Origin: Sulfurovum sp.
Lineage (GTDB): Bacteria > Campylobacterota > Campylobacteria > Campylobacterales > Sulfurovaceae
Direction of reading: 5' to 3'
DNA length: 64,000 nt
Assembly: GCA_027062365.1 (NCBI GenBank)
Contig: JAMOTK010000050.1
Span: 40,636 to 104,635, forward strand
Made by a program: the position numbers and the translations under genes. A model generated the notes under the pieces. The model saw only the letters and a list, made by a program, of their open reading frames with translations, searched no databases and was not told the DNA's origin. Positions 4,613 through 51,053 of the stretch are shown here, piece after piece (positions within the stretch are counted from its first letter, which is position 1; each line of letters begins with the position of its first letter).

Positions 4613-4874
4613 TACTAAAAAGAATCCACCCAATGGTATCACTTTGGGTATGTTTTCTGTGGTGATGATGTCTATGGCTATTGTCTTGATTTTAGCTTCA
4701 GTGAAGATTTATCTAGCCAATCAAATCTATTATCAATCTAAAGTAGTCAATAAGGTACAACAAGAAGTCTCTACCTTAAAAATAGAAAAAATTATGCTCG
4801 AAGAAAATGTAGAAGCCCTTACTTTTAAACACAGAGTTACAGATACTATCTTTACCATACAAGCCAATGATTAA
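4605..4874 (+). CDS. Small single-TM protein in FtsL position (FtsL-like)
   Basis: Overlaps rsmH end; one TM helix plus short coiled-coil-like segment; location downstream of rsmH. Confidence 0.5.
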   Translation: MPNTKKNPPNGITLGMFSVVMMSMAIVLILASVKIYLANQIYYQSKVVNKVQQEVSTLKIEKIMLEENVEALTFKHRVTDTIFTIQAND

Positions 4875-4885
4875 ATGATTAAGAG

Positions 4886-7800
4886 ATGAGAAACTTTATA
4901 CGTTTTGCTGTAACAAAGCCCATTATCAACCATATATTTATGCTATTTATGCTCGTGCTTTCTTTTTTGGCATATCAAAATATTGCCAAAGAGATTTTCC
5001 CTCCTTCGGCTCTTGATGTTATCTCTATACAAGGGGGCTATGTAGGTGCAAGTGCTGATGTCTTAGACAAGATGATAGTCAATGCCATAGAAGATGAGGT
5101 CAAAAGTCTTTCAGAGATAGACACCATTTATACCAGTATCCAAAATGGTAGCTTTAGCATACAAGCAGACATCAAATCTGGAGAAGATTCTCAAACCGTC
5201 TTAGCCGATGTCAAAGATATTATCGCCAAAACCAAGCGTGATATACCCTCTGATATGGATGAGCCTTTGGCACGTGTGATGATACAAGATTATCCTCTCT
5301 TACTTGTGGCAATCTCTGGAGATATAGAAAAAAAAGCACTCATAGAAGCAGGAAATACCCTCAAAAGTAAACTAGGTCTCATTGATGCCTTAAGCAGTAT
5401 AGAGTTGCGTGGGGATACCGATGAAGAGGTACTCATACAGATAGACCAAAAGAAATTAGATGCCTATGATATAGATAAAATATCACTCTATAGGGCTATC
5501 TCCAATATCTCTAGTATCTTCCCAGCAGGTACACTCGATGGTCAAGGGGAACACCTCTATATCTCAACTATCAATGGTGAAAAAGATGCCACTATGTTAG
5601 GCAATACACTCTTAACCGTAGGCACTAAACATTTTTATCTCAAAGATATAGCCAAAGTATCGTATGCCTTAGCTGCCCCTATACAAATCTCTCATTATAA
5701 TGGCAAACAAAACCTTTCACTCAATATCAACAAAAGCAAAGAAGGCAATGCCATTGCTTTGAGTAAAGAGATAAAAGAGATACTCATAGAGTTTAATAAA
5801 AAATATAAAGATATACATTTTAAAGCCTATACCGATACCTCTGTATGGATTAAAAACCGTCTTAATTTGGTCTCTTCCAATATTTTATTTGGATTAATCC
5901 TTGTCTTTTTGGCTCTGTTGCTTTCTTTGAATGTCCGTATCGCGATGGTCGTAGCCATAGGGATACCTGCTAGTTTTATGATTACCCTTATCTTTGCTGA
6001 CCTCATTGGCTATAGTCTCAATATGCTCACACTTTTAGGGGCATTGATAGCCTTAGGGATGCTCGTAGATGAAGCCATAGTAGTCGCAGAAAATATTTAC
6101 CGACACATGGAAATGGGCAAGACCCCCACAAATGCCGCCATAGATGGAGCAACAGAGATGCTCCCTGCTGTCATCACGGCTACACTTACTACTGTTTTTG
6201 CTTTTTTACCTCTACTTATGATGTCTGGAAAGATGGGGGTTTTTATGCAAGTATTGCCTATCATGATTTCGGTTTTACTCCTCTCTTCTTTGTTTGAAGC
6301 GTTTTATTTTTTGCCTCTTCATGCCAAAGAGTTCTTTTCTATGGGGACATTCACAGCCCACAAGCACGATGATAGATTTTGGACAAAGTTTATCGCATGG
6401 TACGAAAATTTTATTATGATACTTTTAAACTACAAAAAGACTTCTCTTTTGCTACTAGTTTCGGCTATTATAGGGGGAACTATCGCCGTGGGGTCGGTCA
6501 CAAAGTTCCAACTTTTTCCCGAATTTGATGCCCAACAAATCTATCTCAACGGAAAAATAGACATCAACAATAACCTAGAAGAGACAGAAGTATATGTCAC
6601 ACAGATAGAAGAAGCCCTCTTAGAGTTACTCAAAAGCAAAGATATGGACTCGGTGACTTCCATTATAGGCTTCAAACTCAACAAAGACCAAAGCTTTGAA
6701 GTAGGCGAAAACCTCTTTCAAATCTTTATCAATTTGCACGAAAAAGCCCCAGAAAATTTCTTTGATAAAAATATCAATCCTATCTTTTCTTTGGAGTATG
6801 ATGACTCTGATATGATACGCTATACCCTATCACAAGACTTAGCCAAAGAGATACAAGAAAAGATTGTCAATACCTTAAAAGATAAAGAAATCAATGGTAA
6901 AAAAATCTATGAAGAGTTCAACGTCTATGTACAACAAGCAGGGATAGTATCCAATGATATAGAGATAGGCTTCGAGCATAAAGATAAAAATATAATGCTC
7001 CAAGCGATGCAAAAAGTTTCAGAAAAACTCTCTGCTATCAAAGGTGTAGAAGAGGTTGCTAACAATGCCAACATAGGAGAACGTGAACTCAAACTCCGTG
7101 TCAATGAATATGGACAATCTTTAGGCTTTAGTGAAGCTGTTGTAACCTCCACCCTAAGAGGTGCATTTCTCAAAGCAGAATATGGGAAAATGTTCAATGA
7201 CACAGGCTTAATCCGTGTCAAGATAGAAGACCTCTACAAACAAGATATAACGGCTCTAAACAACTTCCAACTCAGCACCCCCGATGGAAGTAGACGTGTA
7301 CGGCTAGCAGATATATGTGACTTTAGCTATCAAAAAAGTTTTGTTAAGATATTTAAAGAAGATGGCGAAAAAGTACGCTCACTCTTTGCACGTGTAGAAA
7401 AAAAGATTATTACCCCCGTAGAAGTTATGAAAGAACTCAAATCTCTATTAGATACCTTAGAACAAGAGGGCATCAAAATCATCATCAAAGGCGAAGAAAA
7501 AGAAAACAACAAACTCAAAAAAGAGATGAGTGAAGCCCTACTTATCGCTGTTTTTCTTATCTTTATTACCTTAGTATGGATGTTCAATTCTCTCATCCTC
7601 CCACTCATCATCCTCTCGACCATCCCTCTTTCACTCTTTGGAGCATTACTAGGGACATACCTCATGGGTATCAATATGACCATGCCTGGTATGATGGGTG
7701 TGATAGGATTGGCAGGGGTTGTTGTCAATGATGGTCTCATCATGTTAGACTTCATCAAAAAAGGAAAAGACCACAGCACTGTAGCTAAACAAGCAGGTAT

Positions 7801-42569: not shown

Positions 42570-43316
42570 ATGTCTCATTTCAAATCATTGACCACACTTT
42601 CAATACTTACTTTTACTTGTTTGGCTATGTATGCTAGTACGCCTTCGGATGAGCTTGTAAGCGTAAAAAGCCTAAAGTCCGACAAAGAAGAAGCCTCTCA
42701 AAAAGCTGTCTTGGCTATCATCACCAATTTGATTCTTAGCTCCCCTAGAGCCAACACTCCAGCAACTTTTGATGGAGACACAACAGGAGAAGTAACAGAA
42801 GACACAACTTTAACTACTACAGGAACACTAGACGTGACTGACCCAGATGAAAACCAAGAAGCAATGCAAGCAGGAACGTATAACGGAACATTCGGTTCGA
42901 TACTAATGGACGCAGAAGGAGAGTGGAGGTACACCCTTGACAACACAAACGCAACCGTACAAGCATTAGATGACGGAGAAACGGTAACCGATCTCGTAAC
43001 CGTGAGATCGCTTGATGGAACAGCAAAGATTATAACGCTTACGGTAAATGGAAAAAACGAAGTGGCTATTGATACCCTTCCAACTTATAACGTAACAATA
43101 ATAGACCTTGGTCCAGATTCTGCATTAAATATGGAAATTACAGATGTAAATAACGGAGTATCAAAAGTGGTTATTTCGTATGATAGCGGAACCACCACTC
43201 AAACATATACGAGTGGAATAATTAGTACGGGAGCGGAGATGAAGGGTACAAAAGCAACAGTTGTTGTAACTGATGGAGATGGAAATGTTGCGCCTGCTAA
43301 AGTTTTTACTTTTTAA
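42570..43316 (+). CDS. Secreted small protein with one VCBS-type repeat
   Basis: Signal peptide; GDTTGEVTEDTTLTTTGTLDVTDPDE...GTFGSILMDAEGEWRYTLDNTNATVQALDDGETVTDLVTVRSLDGTAKIITLTVNG (canonical VCBS repeat). Confidence 0.8.
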   Translation: MSHFKSLTTLSILTFTCLAMYASTPSDELVSVKSLKSDKEEASQKAVLAIITNLILSSPRANTPATFDGDTTGEVTEDTTLTTTGTLDVTDPDENQEAMQAGTYNGTFGSILMDAEGEWRYTLDNTNATVQALDDGETVTDLVTVRSLDGTAKIITLTVNGKNEVAIDTLPTYNVTIIDLGPDSALNMEITDVNNGVSKVVISYDSGTTTQTYTSGIISTGAEMKGTKATVVVTDGDGNVAPAKVFTF

Positions 43317-43779: not shown

Positions 43780-44667
43780 TTATCTTATAGATTTTATCTC
43801 TGCTACAGTTAATCCTGTTGTTTGAGATATAAACTCCATATCCATATTGGCATTTAATAAGTTTTTTGCAATTTTAATTTTTTCTTTTAATTTTCCCTCT
43901 TCTAGTCCTTGCTCTAAACCTTCTTCTCTTCCCTTTTCCAATCCCTCTTTCATTCCATCCTCTTTAGCAGTCTCAATCATACTCAACCTCTTCCACGTCT
44001 GTTTAAAGTGCCAGTCGTAGACTTCCATCTCTTTTTTGCTCCAATTATACTGTTTAGCAATCTCAAATGCTTTTTTAAATGCTTCTATATTCTCATACTC
44101 TTGGGGTATCATATCGAAGCTTGAAGCATTTTGTATAAAGTATATCCATTTTTTAGCTATTGTATCACACTCACTAAGTTTTAATTTAAATTTCTTTAAT
44201 TCTATAAAGGTAAATTCAAAGTCTGCTATATCTTGTTTTAGGGTTTTTTCATCTAGTATGAGGTGTCTTGATATATAGTCTTTAGTTTCTAGTATTTCAA
44301 AATCAAGTATTCCTATAAAATATACTTTTTGTAGTTCTTTATAATTCACACCTTTATCAATCTGTTCTACATAAGATTTTGATGTATAGTATAGGCTTCT
44401 TTTAGCGAACTCTTTATCTTTTTCTACTTGCATCTCTACTATAAAGTGTTCATCATTTTGGTTTATTGCTTTTATATCAAGTATTGTGTTTTTTAGCTCT
44501 TTTATTTTGGGTACTTGGTATGGATTGGCTATTGTTACACTTTTTATCTCTTTATTTCCTTTGAAGTCAAGTATTGAGTTTAGGAATGATATTAGCACTT
44601 CTGTTTTATTCTCATCTCCAAATATCTTTTTAAATGCTATATCATTTGTGGGGTTTGCGAACTTCAT
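43780..44667 (-). CDS. Rpn/PD-(D/E)XK nuclease family transposase-like protein
   Basis: MKFANPTNDIAFKKIFGDENKTEVLISFLNSIL..., ILDIKAINQNDEHFIVEMQVEKDKEF; C-terminal KEGLEKGREEGLEQGLEEGK; start at Met 44667. Confidence 0.88.
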   Translation of the reverse strand: MKFANPTNDIAFKKIFGDENKTEVLISFLNSILDFKGNKEIKSVTIANPYQVPKIKELKNTILDIKAINQNDEHFIVEMQVEKDKEFAKRSLYYTSKSYVEQIDKGVNYKELQKVYFIGILDFEILETKDYISRHLILDEKTLKQDIADFEFTFIELKKFKLKLSECDTIAKKWIYFIQNASSFDMIPQEYENIEAFKKAFEIAKQYNWSKKEMEVYDWHFKQTWKRLSMIETAKEDGMKEGLEKGREEGLEQGLEEGKLKEKIKIAKNLLNANMDMEFISQTTGLTVAEIKSIR

Positions 44668-44849
44668 ATTTATAGCCTTTTTTAGGTTATTATAGCATAA
44701 GTTATTTGGAGTTGGAGAGACTGTGGAATGTATATCAGCATATAGACTCACTATAACTTTAGTGACCCTAACTTTCGAACTACACATCCCCTACACAAAA
44801 ATCATCTATACTATCTCTTAGTTAAACTTTATATTTAGGAGAATGTTTT

Positions 44850-46052
44850 ATGCGTATAATATTTTTAATTTTATGGCTCGTGAGTTTTGTGGATGCACAA
44901 AGGGCTGATACTATAGATGGGCTTGTTGCTCATGCTATGAAGGTGCATCCTTCACTTCAGGCGATAAAACATCGTTTGTCTGCAATGGATACACGTATTG
45001 AGATGAGTCAAAATTTTGAAAATCCAGATATCTCTTTGATGGTCAATGATATACAATTTGATGACCCTCTTAATCGTAGGCTTGAACCAATGCAATTTAC
45101 CTCCCTCAATGTCAAACAAAAACTCCCATGGTTTGGTAAACTTGAAGCAAAAAAAGTCTATACCCAATCTAAAAAAAATCTAGTATTACACTCTTATGAT
45201 GGGGCAAAGGTGGCATTGGCTAAAGAGATACGCCTTAGTGTCTATACCATACGAGAGTATGAAGAACGCCTAAAGATACTTTCTGAATACAAGAAAGTTG
45301 CCAAACAAAATAGAGAGCTGTATACTGCCTATGCTTCTACCCAAAACAAAAGCCATAGCAGTAGTATTCAAGCTTCGTTATTGCTTTCTAATCTCAAAAT
45401 ACGTGAACAGAACTACCAAGCGATACTCAAAAGCCAAAAGTCTAAGCTCAAATATCTTGTACAACGTGACATAGGCTTACTAAAGGCTTCATTGAAGATG
45501 ACCGTACCTCTTGGCACAAAGTATTACCTCAACAAACTTAAAAATAATCCCAATTATCGTCTTAAAACATCTCAAAAACATGTAGCAGATGCCCAAAAGG
45601 TTCTAAGTGACTTGGCTCATACCCCTGACCCTTATGTAAAAGTTGGGTACTATAATCGTGTCGATTATCCTGATTATGCCTCGGTCACAGTAGGGATGGC
45701 TTTGCCTTTGTATGGAACAGAAAAGAGCAATTCCGAACTAGCTCGTAAAGAGATACTCCAAGCACAAAGTAGTATCATTGATTATAAATATATGCTCATG
45801 AATGAGATAGAGACAATGGGTATAAAGCTTCATGAAGCCTATACTATTTATAAGATTATCCAAGAACAGAGCCTTCCTCAAATTGCACATATGTTTGACC
45901 TTTTGCAGTCTAGTATCCAAAATGGTGGAGACCTCTTTGCGTATATGCGTCTGCTCGAACAAAAATTAGCCCTAGAAGAAGAAGGTATCTCTATCAAAGC
46001 GATATACTTTAGAACCCAAGCCAAACTCAATTCACTCATTGGAGAACTATAA
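44850..46052 (+). CDS. TolC/CusC-like outer-membrane efflux protein
   Basis: Signal peptide; two repeated coiled-coil OEP blocks (HPSLQAIKHRLSAMDTRIEMS..., ELARKEILQAQSSIIDYKYML). Confidence 0.85.
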   Translation: MRIIFLILWLVSFVDAQRADTIDGLVAHAMKVHPSLQAIKHRLSAMDTRIEMSQNFENPDISLMVNDIQFDDPLNRRLEPMQFTSLNVKQKLPWFGKLEAKKVYTQSKKNLVLHSYDGAKVALAKEIRLSVYTIREYEERLKILSEYKKVAKQNRELYTAYASTQNKSHSSSIQASLLLSNLKIREQNYQAILKSQKSKLKYLVQRDIGLLKASLKMTVPLGTKYYLNKLKNNPNYRLKTSQKHVADAQKVLSDLAHTPDPYVKVGYYNRVDYPDYASVTVGMALPLYGTEKSNSELARKEILQAQSSIIDYKYMLMNEIETMGIKLHEAYTIYKIIQEQSLPQIAHMFDLLQSSIQNGGDLFAYMRLLEQKLALEEEGISIKAIYFRTQAKLNSLIGEL

Positions 46053-47155
46053 TGTACCACTACCTACTCATCCCCCTACTACTCTCAAATTTAGCATGGG
46101 GAGATATGAAATGCTCTGATGGTAAATGTGGGTCAAGCATGAAAGAGACAACACCCAAGATAGAAAAAGTGATGAGCAAAGCAGATGTAATCAAAAAAGA
46201 GTCTAATAAAAAACCTACCATCACACAACTTTTTAATGTGACCACCGTTAAAATCAAATCTGTAAACCGTGCCAAAACCCAAGTAAACTATGGCTATATC
46301 GTAGCCTCAGATGATGCAAAGGTAGATGTCACGGCATGGTATTCTGGTTTTGTAGAAAAGCTTTATGCTGATACGCTTTATACCTATGTCAAAAAGGATG
46401 AAGCCTTAGCCAAAGTCTATTCTCCTGAAGTGTATAAAGCCAAACAAGATTATCTCAACTCTTTGACATTTAACAACACACATACCTCTAGTGGGATGCT
46501 CAAAAGTGCAGAAACCAAACTTTTATTATTAGGTGTAGACAAAAAAGAAATAGCACAGATACGCAAATCACGAAAAGCCGATACCTTGACCACGATTTAT
46601 GCCCCTATATCAGGGTGGATATTTGAGAAAAATATCTCTCAAGGTTCTTCTTTTTCTTCTAAAAAAAGATTGTTTCAGATAGTCAATCTTGATAGCGTAT
46701 GGATGGAAGTGAAACTTTTTCAACATCAATTAAAAGAGTTACATCTCTACCAAGACTTTAGCGTAACTATCAAAGGGATAGAAGAGGTGTATCTAGCCAA
46801 AAAGTCTCTGCTTTATCCTATCATCAATCCCAAAGAGGCTACCACTACCCTACGCCTCATCTTGGATAACAACAAAGGCAAACTAAAAGTAGGTATGTAT
46901 GCCAAAGTCTCTTCTCGTACTCTCAGCAAAGAACGTCTAAGTATCCCTCGTACTGCTGTCATACGCAAAGGTGGTAAGTGGTATGCCTTTTTGGCTACAG
47001 AGTTTAAAGGCGAATATGAGCCTATCGTCATAGAGGTCAAGCCTTTAGACAAACTCTCTTATCAAGTGACCAAAGGACTAACCCTGCAAGATACAGTGGT
47101 CAATAATGCTCTGTTTATGATGGATTCAGATGCTCAAATCAATAGTATTTATTAG
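46052..47155 (+). CDS. CusB-like efflux RND periplasmic adaptor with N-terminal MKCSDGKCGSSM motif
   Basis: GYIVASDDAKVDVTAWYSGFVEKLYADTLYTYVKKDEALAKVYSPEVYKAKQDYLN; APISGWIFEKNISQGSSF. Confidence 0.88.
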   Translation: MYHYLLIPLLLSNLAWGDMKCSDGKCGSSMKETTPKIEKVMSKADVIKKESNKKPTITQLFNVTTVKIKSVNRAKTQVNYGYIVASDDAKVDVTAWYSGFVEKLYADTLYTYVKKDEALAKVYSPEVYKAKQDYLNSLTFNNTHTSSGMLKSAETKLLLLGVDKKEIAQIRKSRKADTLTTIYAPISGWIFEKNISQGSSFSSKKRLFQIVNLDSVWMEVKLFQHQLKELHLYQDFSVTIKGIEEVYLAKKSLLYPIINPKEATTTLRLILDNNKGKLKVGMYAKVSSRTLSKERLSIPRTAVIRKGGKWYAFLATEFKGEYEPIVIEVKPLDKLSYQVTKGLTLQDTVVNNALFMMDSDAQINSIY

Positions 47156-47164
47156 GAGTATCTG

Positions 47165-50100
47165 ATGATTGAAAAATTAATAAGCTTTTCTATTCGCAAT
47201 CGTTTTGTCGTCTTGATGATTACATTATTTACCATATTGGGTTCTATTTGGGCTATGAAAAATACCCCTTTAGATGCACTACCTGACCTCTCTCCTCCAC
47301 AGGTCATCGTACAAGTCACATGGAAAGGGCAAAGCCCTCAAATCATCGAAGACCAAGGGACGTATCCTCTCGTATCACAATTTTTGGCTATATCCAATAT
47401 CGAAACGGTACGAGGATTTTCTACCTATGAGAATGCTTTGATTTATATCATCTTTAAAGAAGGTACGGATTTGTACTGGGCTAGAAGCCGTGTACTAGAG
47501 CAACTCGCTTCCATACAAAGCCAACTTCCTAGTAATATGGAGATTGGCTTAGGTCCTGATGCTTCTGGTGTAGGTTGGGTCTATGAGTATGCCCTCACAT
47601 CAAAGACCAAAACACTCGCAGAGCTACGCACGATACAAGACTATTATTATAAATATGCTCTCATGGGTGTCGATGGAGTAAGTGAAGTAGCAAGTATAGG
47701 GGGATTTGTACCTACCTATCAAATCACTATCAATCAAGACACCTTGGTACAATACAATCTTTCTATCAATGACATTGCCAAGACGCTTAAAGACAACAAC
47801 AATGACACAGGAGGACGTATCGTCATCCAAAATGGCTATGAATGGATGGTTCAAGCCAAAGGATATATCAAAGATTTAGATGAGATAGGACAACTGGTCA
47901 TTACCACCAAAGGAGGCGTACCTTTGACCTTGGCAGAAGTGGGGCGTGTAGAGATAGTACCCTCAGCACGGCGTGGTATCGCCGAACTCAATGGCGAGGG
48001 TGAAGTCGTTGGGGGTATCGTTATGGTACGCTATGGCGAAGATGTCTATTCTGCTATCAAACGCATAGAAAAAAAGATGGAAAAGCTCAAAATAGACGGT
48101 GTTGAAGTCGTCACGACCTATAACCGTTCAGGACTGATAGAGAGTGCCATCAAAACCCTACAGACCACCCTATTAGAAGAGAGTATTATTGTGATTATCA
48201 TCATAGGGCTTTTTTTGATGCACTTTCGTTCTACACTTATTATGATTATTATTTTACCTCTTACGATTGCTTTTCCTTTTTTACTCATGAAGCTTTTTGG
48301 GATTGGCTCAAATATTATGAGTTTAGGAGGGATAGCCATAGCCATTGGGGCGATGGTCGATGCCTCTATCGTGATGATAGAAAATGCCCACAAATCCATA
48401 CACAAGCAAGAGAGCAAACTAGGCAAACCCCTAAGTGAGAAAGAACGCATAGAGACTATCTTAAAGTCTTCACAGCTGGTAGGTCGTCCTATATTTTTTG
48501 CTTTGGCTTTGGTTGTGGTCTCCTTTTTACCTATCTTTGCACTTTCAGGTCAAGAGGGTTTGCTCTTTAGCCCCTTAGCATTTACCAAAACCTTTGCCAT
48601 GACAGCAGGGGCATTACTCTCTATTACCCTTGTGCCTGTATTGATGATATTTTTTATCAAAGGTAAGATTATCCCTGAAAACAAAAACCCTATAAATCGT
48701 TTTTTTATTTGGCTCTACCACCCCATCTTGGTCTATGGACTCAAACTAAAATACCTTGTGATAGTTCTTTCTATAGGTGCGTTGGCGTTTGCTGTACCCA
48801 TATACCAAAAGCTCAACTGGGAATTTATGCCTATGCTTGATGAACAAACGATGATGTATATGCCTGTGACACCGTATGGTATCTCTGTAGCCCAAAGTAA
48901 AGCCCTCACACAAAAGACCGATAAAATTATCAAATCCTTTCCTGAGGTAGAGACAGTATTTGGTAAAGGAGGACGTGCCAATTCGCCTACAGACTCTGCT
49001 CCTTTGGGTATGCTAGAGACCATTATCACGTTTAAGCCCAAATCACAATGGCGTAAAGGCATGACCCATGAAAAGCTTCTAAAGGAAATGGAAGAAGCCC
49101 TACAAGTAGCAGGATTGGTAAACTCATGGACATACCCTATCAGAGGGCGTATTGATATGCTTTTATCAGGTATCCGTACCCCTATTGGTATCAAGCTTTA
49201 TGGCAAAGATGCCTTAGGGTTACAAAGTGTAGCCTTAGAGATAGAGCATATCTTACGTAATCTAAAAAGCACACAGTCTGTATTTTCTGACCAAGCGAGT
49301 GCAGGGTTTTTCATAGATATAGATATAGACACCCAAGCCCTACAACGCTACAATATTTCTAAAAAACTACTCTTAGACTACACCTCTACAGCCATAGGAG
49401 GCAAAAAGATAACTACCATGTACAAAGGACTAGAACGCTACCCTATATCCTTACGTTTTGAAGAAGATGAAAGACGCAACCTAGAAGACATACGCAATAT
49501 CCAAATCAAAACCCCTCTAGGATTTGCTCCTCTTTCTACCTTTGCTACGGTCTCCTACACAGAGAGTGCTTCTGTGATAAAGTCCGAGATGGCTACCCCT
49601 GTAACCTTTGTCTATATCACACCCCAAACAGATATTTCAGCTACCCAATACAAGACCCAAGCCATAGAAGCACTCAAAGACTTGAAGCTTCCTTTGGGCT
49701 ACTATATCGAGTGGGCAGGTCAATCAGAGTATTTAGAGTCTGCTATGCAAAAGATTGTTTGGATAGTACCTACGGTGTTGCTTGTTATCTTGCTTCTTAT
49801 CTATTTTGCACTCAAACGCATGACCCCTACGCTCATCGTCTTTTTTACCCTACCTTTTGCTTTGTTAGGGGGCATTGTCTACCTTGATATGCTAGGATTT
49901 TCTATGAGTATTGCCGTCATTGTAGGCTTTTTGGCACTCTTAGGGGTCGCTGCTGAGACTGCCATCGTCATGATAGTTTATCTCCAAGAGTCTGTACAAG
50001 AACGCAAAGACCAAGAGAAAGAAAACTTTACACTCTTGCATCTAAATGAAGCTATCTATGAAGGTGCTGTCCAACGGGTACGCCCTAAGCTCATGACCGT

Positions 50101-50290
50101 CTTTGCTATATTGGCTGGACTTTTACCCATCATGTACACCACAGGTGTAGGCTCAGAAGTGATGCAACGAATCGCAGCACCAATGATAGGGGGAGTCGTA
50201 AGTTCTGCTATACTTTCACTCTTACTCATCCCTATCTTTTATGAAATGTATGAGAAAAAACAGATAACAAGGAAAAACTATGATAAATAA
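47165..50290 (+). CDS. CusA/CzcA-family heavy-metal RND efflux permease
   Basis: 1041 aa; RNRFVVLMITLFTILGSIWAMKNTPLDALPDLSPPQVIVQVTWKGQSPQIIEDQGTYPLVSQFLAI (HME-RND signature), MVDASIVMIENAHK. Confidence 0.93.
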   Translation: MIEKLISFSIRNRFVVLMITLFTILGSIWAMKNTPLDALPDLSPPQVIVQVTWKGQSPQIIEDQGTYPLVSQFLAISNIETVRGFSTYENALIYIIFKEGTDLYWARSRVLEQLASIQSQLPSNMEIGLGPDASGVGWVYEYALTSKTKTLAELRTIQDYYYKYALMGVDGVSEVASIGGFVPTYQITINQDTLVQYNLSINDIAKTLKDNNNDTGGRIVIQNGYEWMVQAKGYIKDLDEIGQLVITTKGGVPLTLAEVGRVEIVPSARRGIAELNGEGEVVGGIVMVRYGEDVYSAIKRIEKKMEKLKIDGVEVVTTYNRSGLIESAIKTLQTTLLEESIIVIIIIGLFLMHFRSTLIMIIILPLTIAFPFLLMKLFGIGSNIMSLGGIAIAIGAMVDASIVMIENAHKSIHKQESKLGKPLSEKERIETILKSSQLVGRPIFFALALVVVSFLPIFALSGQEGLLFSPLAFTKTFAMTAGALLSITLVPVLMIFFIKGKIIPENKNPINRFFIWLYHPILVYGLKLKYLVIVLSIGALAFAVPIYQKLNWEFMPMLDEQTMMYMPVTPYGISVAQSKALTQKTDKIIKSFPEVETVFGKGGRANSPTDSAPLGMLETIITFKPKSQWRKGMTHEKLLKEMEEALQVAGLVNSWTYPIRGRIDMLLSGIRTPIGIKLYGKDALGLQSVALEIEHILRNLKSTQSVFSDQASAGFFIDIDIDTQALQRYNISKKLLLDYTSTAIGGKKITTMYKGLERYPISLRFEEDERRNLEDIRNIQIKTPLGFAPLSTFATVSYTESASVIKSEMATPVTFVYITPQTDISATQYKTQAIEALKDLKLPLGYYIEWAGQSEYLESAMQKIVWIVPTVLLVILLLIYFALKRMTPTLIVFFTLPFALLGGIVYLDMLGFSMSIAVIVGFLALLGVAAETAIVMIVYLQESVQERKDQEKENFTLLHLNEAIYEGAVQRVRPKLMTVFAILAGLLPIMYTTGVGSEVMQRIAAPMIGGVVSSAILSLLLIPIFYEMYEKKQITRKNYDK

Positions 50291-50633
50291 ATTATACGCA
50301 TTATCACTCACACTACTACTCTGTGCTTGTAGTGGTGAAAAACAAGCTAAATCTATCACAGAAGGTGGTATGAAATGTGGGGCAGGTAAATGTGGAGCAA
50401 GTATGGTAGATGGCTCTGCTACCCTCGTCAAAAAAAAGATGAATATATTAGACCAACTCAAAGAAGAAGACAATAGAAGAGATTGCGTCCTCAACGCAAG
50501 TAGTAGTAAAGCCCTCTATGACTGCGTAAGGGTAGAAAAAAACCAAAGACTCAGTACAAAATGTAACACTAAAAATACTCAAAAGAGTAAAGAGGAAGCG
50601 ATGAAATGTGAAGCAGGTAAGTGTGGAAGTTAG
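50280..50633 (+). CDS. Small lipoprotein with two MKCxAGKCG motifs; candidate metal-binding partner of the efflux system
   Basis: Lipobox LLLCACSG; MKCGAGKCGASM (50370-50405) and C-terminal MKCEAGKCGS (50601-50630); start overlaps end of the permease gene. Confidence 0.75.
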   Translation: MINKLYALSLTLLLCACSGEKQAKSITEGGMKCGAGKCGASMVDGSATLVKKKMNILDQLKEEDNRRDCVLNASSSKALYDCVRVEKNQRLSTKCNTKNTQKSKEEAMKCEAGKCGS

Positions 50634-50648
50634 CTAAAAAAACAACGT

Positions 50649-51053
50649 CTACCACTTTCTCACAAGTGCGTGACAGGTTACACATCTATTTAAGACTTGA
50701 TTAAACTCTTTCATTACTGCTTCTTTGTCACCTTTATCAAAATCTTCTATAATTTTTGATGCCATTGTATCTAATGCTTTGGTTTCTGTAGTGGCATACA
50801 CTTTTGCATTAAATTTGACATCTGCATCATTTGTAATAAGAAAAGAATCAATATTTTTCAAATCTCTTCTCAATGATACAATACCACCTTTAATCCTAGC
50901 TCTACTGTTGTATAAAAACCCTTTTTGAATTTTAGACATAGATCTTTCCAAGTTTTGCATTGTTTTTTTAATCATCTCTGTATTTGGTGCTTCTGCACTT
51001 GCCATCAAAAGACTAGACCCCAATAGTGCTGATACTAATAACATTTTTTTCAT
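50649..51053 (-). CDS. Exported c-type cytochrome-like protein with C-terminal CxxCH
   Basis: Signal peptide; helical sequence ending VLNRCVTCHALVRKW, cytochrome c'-like layout. Confidence 0.65.
   Translation of the reverse strand: MKKMLLVSALLGSSLLMASAEAPNTEMIKKTMQNLERSMSKIQKGFLYNSRARIKGGIVSLRRDLKNIDSFLITNDADVKFNAKVYATTETKALDTMASKIIEDFDKGDKEAVMKEFNQVLNRCVTCHALVRKW

Follow-up and report, generated by a model that had tools for sequence, protein, structure and literature searches.

The DNA analysed here is a stretch of 64,000 nucleotides (the window) from contig JAMOTK010000050.1 of Sulfurovum sp. (GenBank assembly GCA_027062365.1), in which a CusCBA-type metal efflux operon ends in a gene for a small cysteine-rich lipoprotein (Table 1). 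The four genes encode an outer-membrane factor, a periplasmic adaptor, an HME-RND permease and the lipoprotein. All lie on the forward strand with overlaps or gaps of only a few bases between neighbours, and the last 11 nt of cusA already belong to the lipoprotein gene. The permease matches the solved CusA structures (PDB entries 3k07 and 3t51) with E=7e-284, and all three metal-binding methionines of CusA are kept: M566, M616 and M665 line up with the YMP, MVETT and RIDML methionines. The adaptor matches the CusB model NF007303 at 3.3e-29, yet lies under that model's cut-off; its PDB match is CusB (3t51). Judged by its gene families and its Met triad, the operon encodes a pump of the CusCBA type that would export Cu(I)/Ag(I); an earlier note on this DNA had likewise seen in it a CusCBA-type metal efflux operon. 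Neither CusA nor CusC contains a cysteine. A promoter scan gave a score no higher than those of shuffled sequences.

Table 1. Features of the efflux operon and of its terminal lipoprotein gene, in window positions
Feature	Position	Strand	Evidence
cusC-like outer-membrane factor, 400 aa	44850..46052	+	ORF; Pfam OEP 7.6e-19
cusB-type periplasmic adaptor, 367 aa	46052..47155	+	Pfam HlyD_D23 2e-49
Adaptor motif MKCSDGKCGSSM, residues 19-30	46106..46141	+	sequence
cusA-type HME-RND permease, 1041 aa	47165..50290	+	TIGR00914 1011 bits (cut-off 701)
CusA Met triad M566 (E. coli M573)	48860..48862	+	alignment to CusA
CusA Met triad M616 (E. coli M623)	49010..49012	+	alignment to CusA
CusA Met triad M665 (E. 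coli M672)	49157..49159	+	alignment to CusA
Lipoprotein, 117 aa, lipobox L-C-A-C17	50280..50633	+	ORF; C17 invariant in 19-row alignment
Lipoprotein N-terminal motif MKCGAGKCGASM, residues 31-42	50370..50405	+	19-row alignment
Lipoprotein conserved helical core, residues 47-84, with C69 and C82	50418..50531	+	alignment; AlphaFold2
Lipoprotein C-terminal motif MKCEAGKCGS, residues 108-117	50601..50630	+	sequence, alignment

One motif, MKCxxGKCG, occurs in near-identical form once in the adaptor and twice in the lipoprotein; the earlier note had drawn attention to these three copies, and its coordinates for open reading frames (ORFs) and motifs proved exact. The adaptor copy MKCSDGKCGSSM starts about one residue past the likely signal peptide and thus forms the N-terminus of the mature protein; C21 and C26, both inside it, are the only cysteines of the adaptor. 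The lipoprotein has nine Cys, no His and five scattered Met without any Met-rich motif. It could not be assigned to a Pfam, NCBIfam or PHROG family, Pfam giving nothing at E<=0.1 and hence no CusF_Ec match. The N-terminal motif is its most constant part: M31, K32, C33, G34, G36, K37, C38, G39 and M42 are invariant among 19 aligned lipoproteins, and the linkers vary. An AlphaFold2 model built from a two-sequence alignment has a mean pLDDT of 52, with values of 70-90 in the core only; the core is helical and the motif arms are not resolved. The orthologous operons carry the motif in 16 of the 18 Sulfurovum adaptors with a readable N-terminus and, as the N-terminal copy, in 19/19 of the aligned lipoproteins. 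The linker behind the adaptor motif differs greatly in length, and distant paralogous adaptors (26-27% identity) lack the motif throughout. Among the papers searched, none described the motif or the lipoprotein.

Chance is excluded as the origin of the motif. A degenerate DNA pattern for MKCxxGKCG gives five sites in the 2.3-Mb source genome and none when reversed; across 60 genomes, the source included, there are 128 sites, in 34 genomes of which 32 belong to the same genus, and again none with the reversed pattern. Of 397 genomes sampled from the phylum, 48, spread over 13 of 68 genera, contain it, and the control gives no match. A pattern scan of named genomes is dominated by a reductase loop and is no measure of the motif's spread; among the matches listed there, 68 of 80 loci are of the reductase type by sequence. 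This is the [2Fe-2S] loop of sulfhydrogenase-gamma/PyrK-like reductases, spelled RRMKCGVGKCGHC, which shares the letters MKCGxGKCG with the motif, and the lipoprotein's single weak NCBIfam match is to ShyC (E=0.037), a match that stems from the motif letters. That the motif itself is an iron-sulphur ligand loop is nevertheless scarcely credible. Such a loop needs CX4CX2C and a fourth Cys, but the window motifs, which sit on exported proteins, offer CX4C alone and have Ser for the third Cys. They read CxxGKCGxS where the reductases read CxxGKCGxC...C, and the candidate was rejected on the missing third and fourth cysteines.

The motif is spread far beyond the operon. In the window and the regions fetched from relatives, 123 ORFs contain KCxxGKC, and clustering with the motif masked divides them into many unrelated families, about ten of them exported families within the genus. 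Carriers include DsbD_2 membrane proteins, the lipoprotein, NosL-like proteins, CusB adaptors, cytochromes c, a Fer4_5 ferredoxin-type membrane protein, DUF4395 and DUF2059 proteins, a Met-rich Spy-like group without Pfam assignment and small HvfA-like repeat proteins, and the motif stands at N-termini, at C-termini or in repeats. By a crude hydrophobicity test, a hydrophobic N-terminus or transmembrane segment is present in 119/123 motif ORFs compared with 431/825 (52%) neighbouring ORFs; the window adaptor scores under the threshold despite a signal-like N-terminus. In the source genome the strict motif is carried by the adaptor, the lipoprotein (twice), a DsbD_2 membrane protein and a cytochrome c, and the looser KCxxGKC form adds two small proteins on contig 17 and one match on contig 9 outside any motif ORF. 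The contig 17 pair (locus L329, 2955-3164 and 3311-3490, both on the minus strand) adjoins a GMC-oxidoreductase-like pair; one member is HvfA-like and secreted, and the other has an N-terminal membrane helix and a MKCEAGKCSTGKCGGK tail. Two convergent genes of G096, an Arcobacter-like genome (L333, 4414-4641 on the plus strand and 4709-5401 on the minus strand), both encode MKCQAGKCG; one product is a small repeat protein and the other a membrane protein of DUF4395 type.

The DsbD_2 tail is the clearest putative case of a portable motif. MKC[AT]PGKCG forms the last nine residues in 26/28 Sulfurovum orthologues, and the linkers before this tail vary freely; the two exceptions come from G033 and G034, genomes without any MKCxxGKCG site. 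These two genomes also have no CusB match; it seems that the motif set is lost, or absent, as a whole. In more distant DsbD_2 homologues the alignment stops at about residue 247 or earlier and the reading frames are shorter; of these, only that at L302 was read to the end. A DsbD_2-like protein from another Helicobacteraceae metagenome-assembled genome (L156, near 3087, minus strand) bears the repeated tail MKCGAGKCGAGKCGMGKCGSRE, apparently a separate tail on a similar protein. The earlier suggestion of a ligand site held in common by two operon partners was accordingly too narrow in treating the motif as a bond private to them, since about ten exported families of the genus share it. We tentatively consider that MKCxxGKCG has been grafted repeatedly onto unrelated exported proteins in Sulfurovum and that copper moves by ligand exchange between identical sites, with neither CusF nor MNIO modification, a reading that is somewhat less probable than not.

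The same distribution could be read as that of a copper sponge without direction. The motif would then be a minimal thiol of bufferin type, buffering the copper of the periplasm on whatever protein bears it, and there would be no hand-over between lipoprotein and adaptor. Motif repeats do make up small HvfA-like proteins in the genus (NF050137 matches), the motif occupies both termini and repeats of many unrelated proteins, and the adaptor and lipoprotein motifs do not strictly co-occur. A single copy per DsbD_2 tail or per adaptor would, however, make a poor sponge, and the preservation of that copy in nearly all DsbD_2 orthologues (26/28) and at the start of most mature adaptors (16/18) also argues against it, so that we regard this explanation as possible but doubtful.

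The systems that might otherwise load such a pump or modify such a motif are missing. The CusF domain PF11604 was found in 0/60 genomes, with E. coli and Caulobacter controls positive, and a CusF in disguise was rejected on this result. The MNIO family PF05114 is absent from the source genome and from all 37 genomes of the genus (0/37); outside the genus it was found in four genomes, which belong to three genera. The EGKCG motif of HvfA and the bufferins is modified by MNIO enzymes (PMC12452194). Neither the lipoprotein nor the adaptor matches NF050137 or NF050188 at E<=0.1, and some small repeat proteins of the genus and of family f16 exceed the NF050137 cut-off. An MNIO-modified HvfA or bufferin was rejected for the genus for want of PF05114, and an MNIO-made modification of the motif there appears unlikely because the enzyme is absent. 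The invariant Lys and Gly are therefore not there for MNIO recognition in this genus; they may tune thiol acidity or dock a partner.

A recognition tag of another kind might still be considered, by which some periplasmic enzyme or partner would know the carriers that it is to modify or sort, in the manner of the EGKCG substrates of MNIO enzymes. The Lys and Gly positions equal the Cys positions in invariance, and EGKCG repeats do serve as MNIO substrates elsewhere (PMC12452194). The genus has no MNIO, however, and the carriers differ both in class and in the position of the tag. We also know of no sorting step common to the motif carriers, and this explanation is very unlikely.

The genomic setting of the lipoprotein gene points to copper export. 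It follows cusA at 20 of the 21 lipoprotein loci first examined, the window included, and in Sulfurovum it does so at every examined locus whose upstream gene is present. Outside the genus the lipoprotein, whose N-terminal motif has one divergent copy, MQCGPGKCSASM (L311), occurs in family f16, where that motif is also kept. Its gene follows cusA in genus g60 of this family, and in G325 only a small ORF of metal-binding type separates the two. In G051 it lies directly after a gene for a copper P-type ATPase and beside a CopA-type multicopper oxidase, and in G089 the ATPase-lipoprotein arrangement is the same by sequence. The lipoprotein thus appears tied to copper export with or without the adaptor motif. 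Because the N-terminal motif is kept in f16, where the C-terminal one is absent in g60 and G325 and the adaptors of G238, G325, G089 and G051 have no copy, a lipoprotein with a single N-terminal motif is the older and wider part of the system. The copy on the adaptor and the second one on the lipoprotein look as if they were added later.

This setting also bears on the identity of the metal. Thiolates bind Zn, Cd, Hg and As as well, and the cytochromes c, the DUF4395 proteins and the Spy-like group are not established copper proteins, so that the site might bind another soft metal, or act as a redox thiol/disulphide pair, with copper incidental. The Cu/Ag Met triad of CusA and the position of the f16 lipoprotein gene after a copper ATPase and beside a multicopper oxidase oppose this view, which we hold to be improbable.

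Around the operon in the window, an ORF at 43780-44787 on the minus strand, directly upstream of and divergent from cusC, encodes a transposase of the PD-(D/E)XK nuclease family (PF12784), and one at 42570-43316 on the plus strand encodes an exported VCBS/cadherin-like protein (TIGR01965 1.5e-24). Downstream of the lipoprotein gene and convergent with it, an ORF at 50649-51053 on the minus strand encodes a cytochrome c'-like protein with a CVTCH heme motif (PF01322 E=0.0014, below cut-off).

Taken together, the locus is best interpreted, with a probability of about 0.6, as a CusF-less CusCBA Cu(I)/Ag(I) pump in which MKCxxGKCG would serve as an unmodified thiolate ligand and the lipoprotein as a periplasmic chaperone or buffer, metal binding and hand-over being inferred. 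The two motif cysteines and the flanking Met would form an unmodified CX4C site for Cu(I)/Ag(I), two- or three-coordinate. The lipoprotein, probably anchored in the outer membrane, would carry one or two of these sites on flexible arms that surround a small helical core, and would serve the pump from there. In E. coli, the disordered N-terminus of CusB receives Cu(I) from CusF by way of an intermediate to which both proteins supply ligands (PMC6235853), and identical motifs on lipoprotein and adaptor would suit an exchange of this kind. In Sulfurovum, the adaptor tail may have gained the motif, and metal would then pass between identical ligands by ligand exchange. The motif on the NosL-like, DsbD_2, cytochrome c and HvfA-like proteins might give these access to one periplasmic copper pool.

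Several observations weigh against this interpretation. Two of the 18 Sulfurovum adaptors (copy 2 of G003 and that of G028) lack the motif, as do the f16 adaptors of G238 (read from locus L336), G325, G089 and G051, though the lipoprotein is kept. The C-terminal lipoprotein motif is missing in G428 and in several f16 orthologues (g60, G325). Metal ligation alone does not explain the invariant Lys and Gly, and periplasmic Cys pairs may oxidise to disulphides. A private adaptor-lipoprotein pairing was rejected because the lipoprotein stays beside the motif-free adaptors of G238, G325 and the two Sulfurovum exceptions, and hand-over to the adaptor motif therefore cannot be the whole story. Since the lipoprotein persists beside such adaptors, its older role is probably to serve the pump, or CusA itself, as chaperone or buffer; hand-over to the adaptor tail would be a refinement made in Sulfurovum. 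The earlier proposal that the lipoprotein takes the place of CusF and hands metal to the adaptor is thus partly supported, right in direction and too narrow: the lack of CusF in 60 genomes and the steady linkage of cusA and lipoprotein favour the replacement, and the absence of the adaptor motif from some operons that have the lipoprotein counts against hand-over as its whole role.

Cus pumps without CusF need another means of metal loading, for which the lipoprotein is a defined candidate with a short ligand. If the interpretation is true, the repeated use of a single peptide across the genus, on unrelated proteins only some of which have to do with copper, would give a clear natural example of a metal-exchange module that is portable. 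As a putative MNIO-free counterpart of the EGKCG bufferins, it could also show the role of the KCG motif before or without modification.

Compared with known systems, the operon resembles E. coli CusCFBA in its CusC/B/A order, in the CusA Met triad, in a flexible adaptor N-terminus with metal ligands and in a small exported protein encoded in the operon. It differs in having no CusF, the additional protein being a Cys-rich lipoprotein without His, and in presenting a CX4C motif on the adaptor where E. coli uses the Met cluster M21/M36/M38 (PMC6235853). SilE, which accompanies SilCFBA in silver resistance, is likewise a disordered periplasmic protein additional to the pump; it binds metal and may hand it on to the adaptor (PMC8686694). 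Its sites are formed by Met and His and SilF is retained, in contrast to the Cys sites and lack of CusF/SilF seen here. Helicobacter pylori CrdAB-CzcBA is also a campylobacterotal copper RND pump with a small exported copper protein, but CrdA is CopC-like and Met-rich (MXXMPGM site) and has no Cys or His (PMC9182242), whereas the present lipoprotein has nine Cys and no Met-rich motif. The HvfA/Buf_EGKCG (oxazolin) bufferins share export, repeated GKCG motifs and a link to copper, and bufferin domains fused to cytochrome c or MerC have been reported (PMC12452194); unlike them, the Sulfurovum motif occurs in a genus without MNIO and mostly as a single-copy tail on other proteins. Overall, this is a known pump in a form that lacks CusF, and it carries a motif related to that of HvfA whose reuse throughout the genus is unusual.

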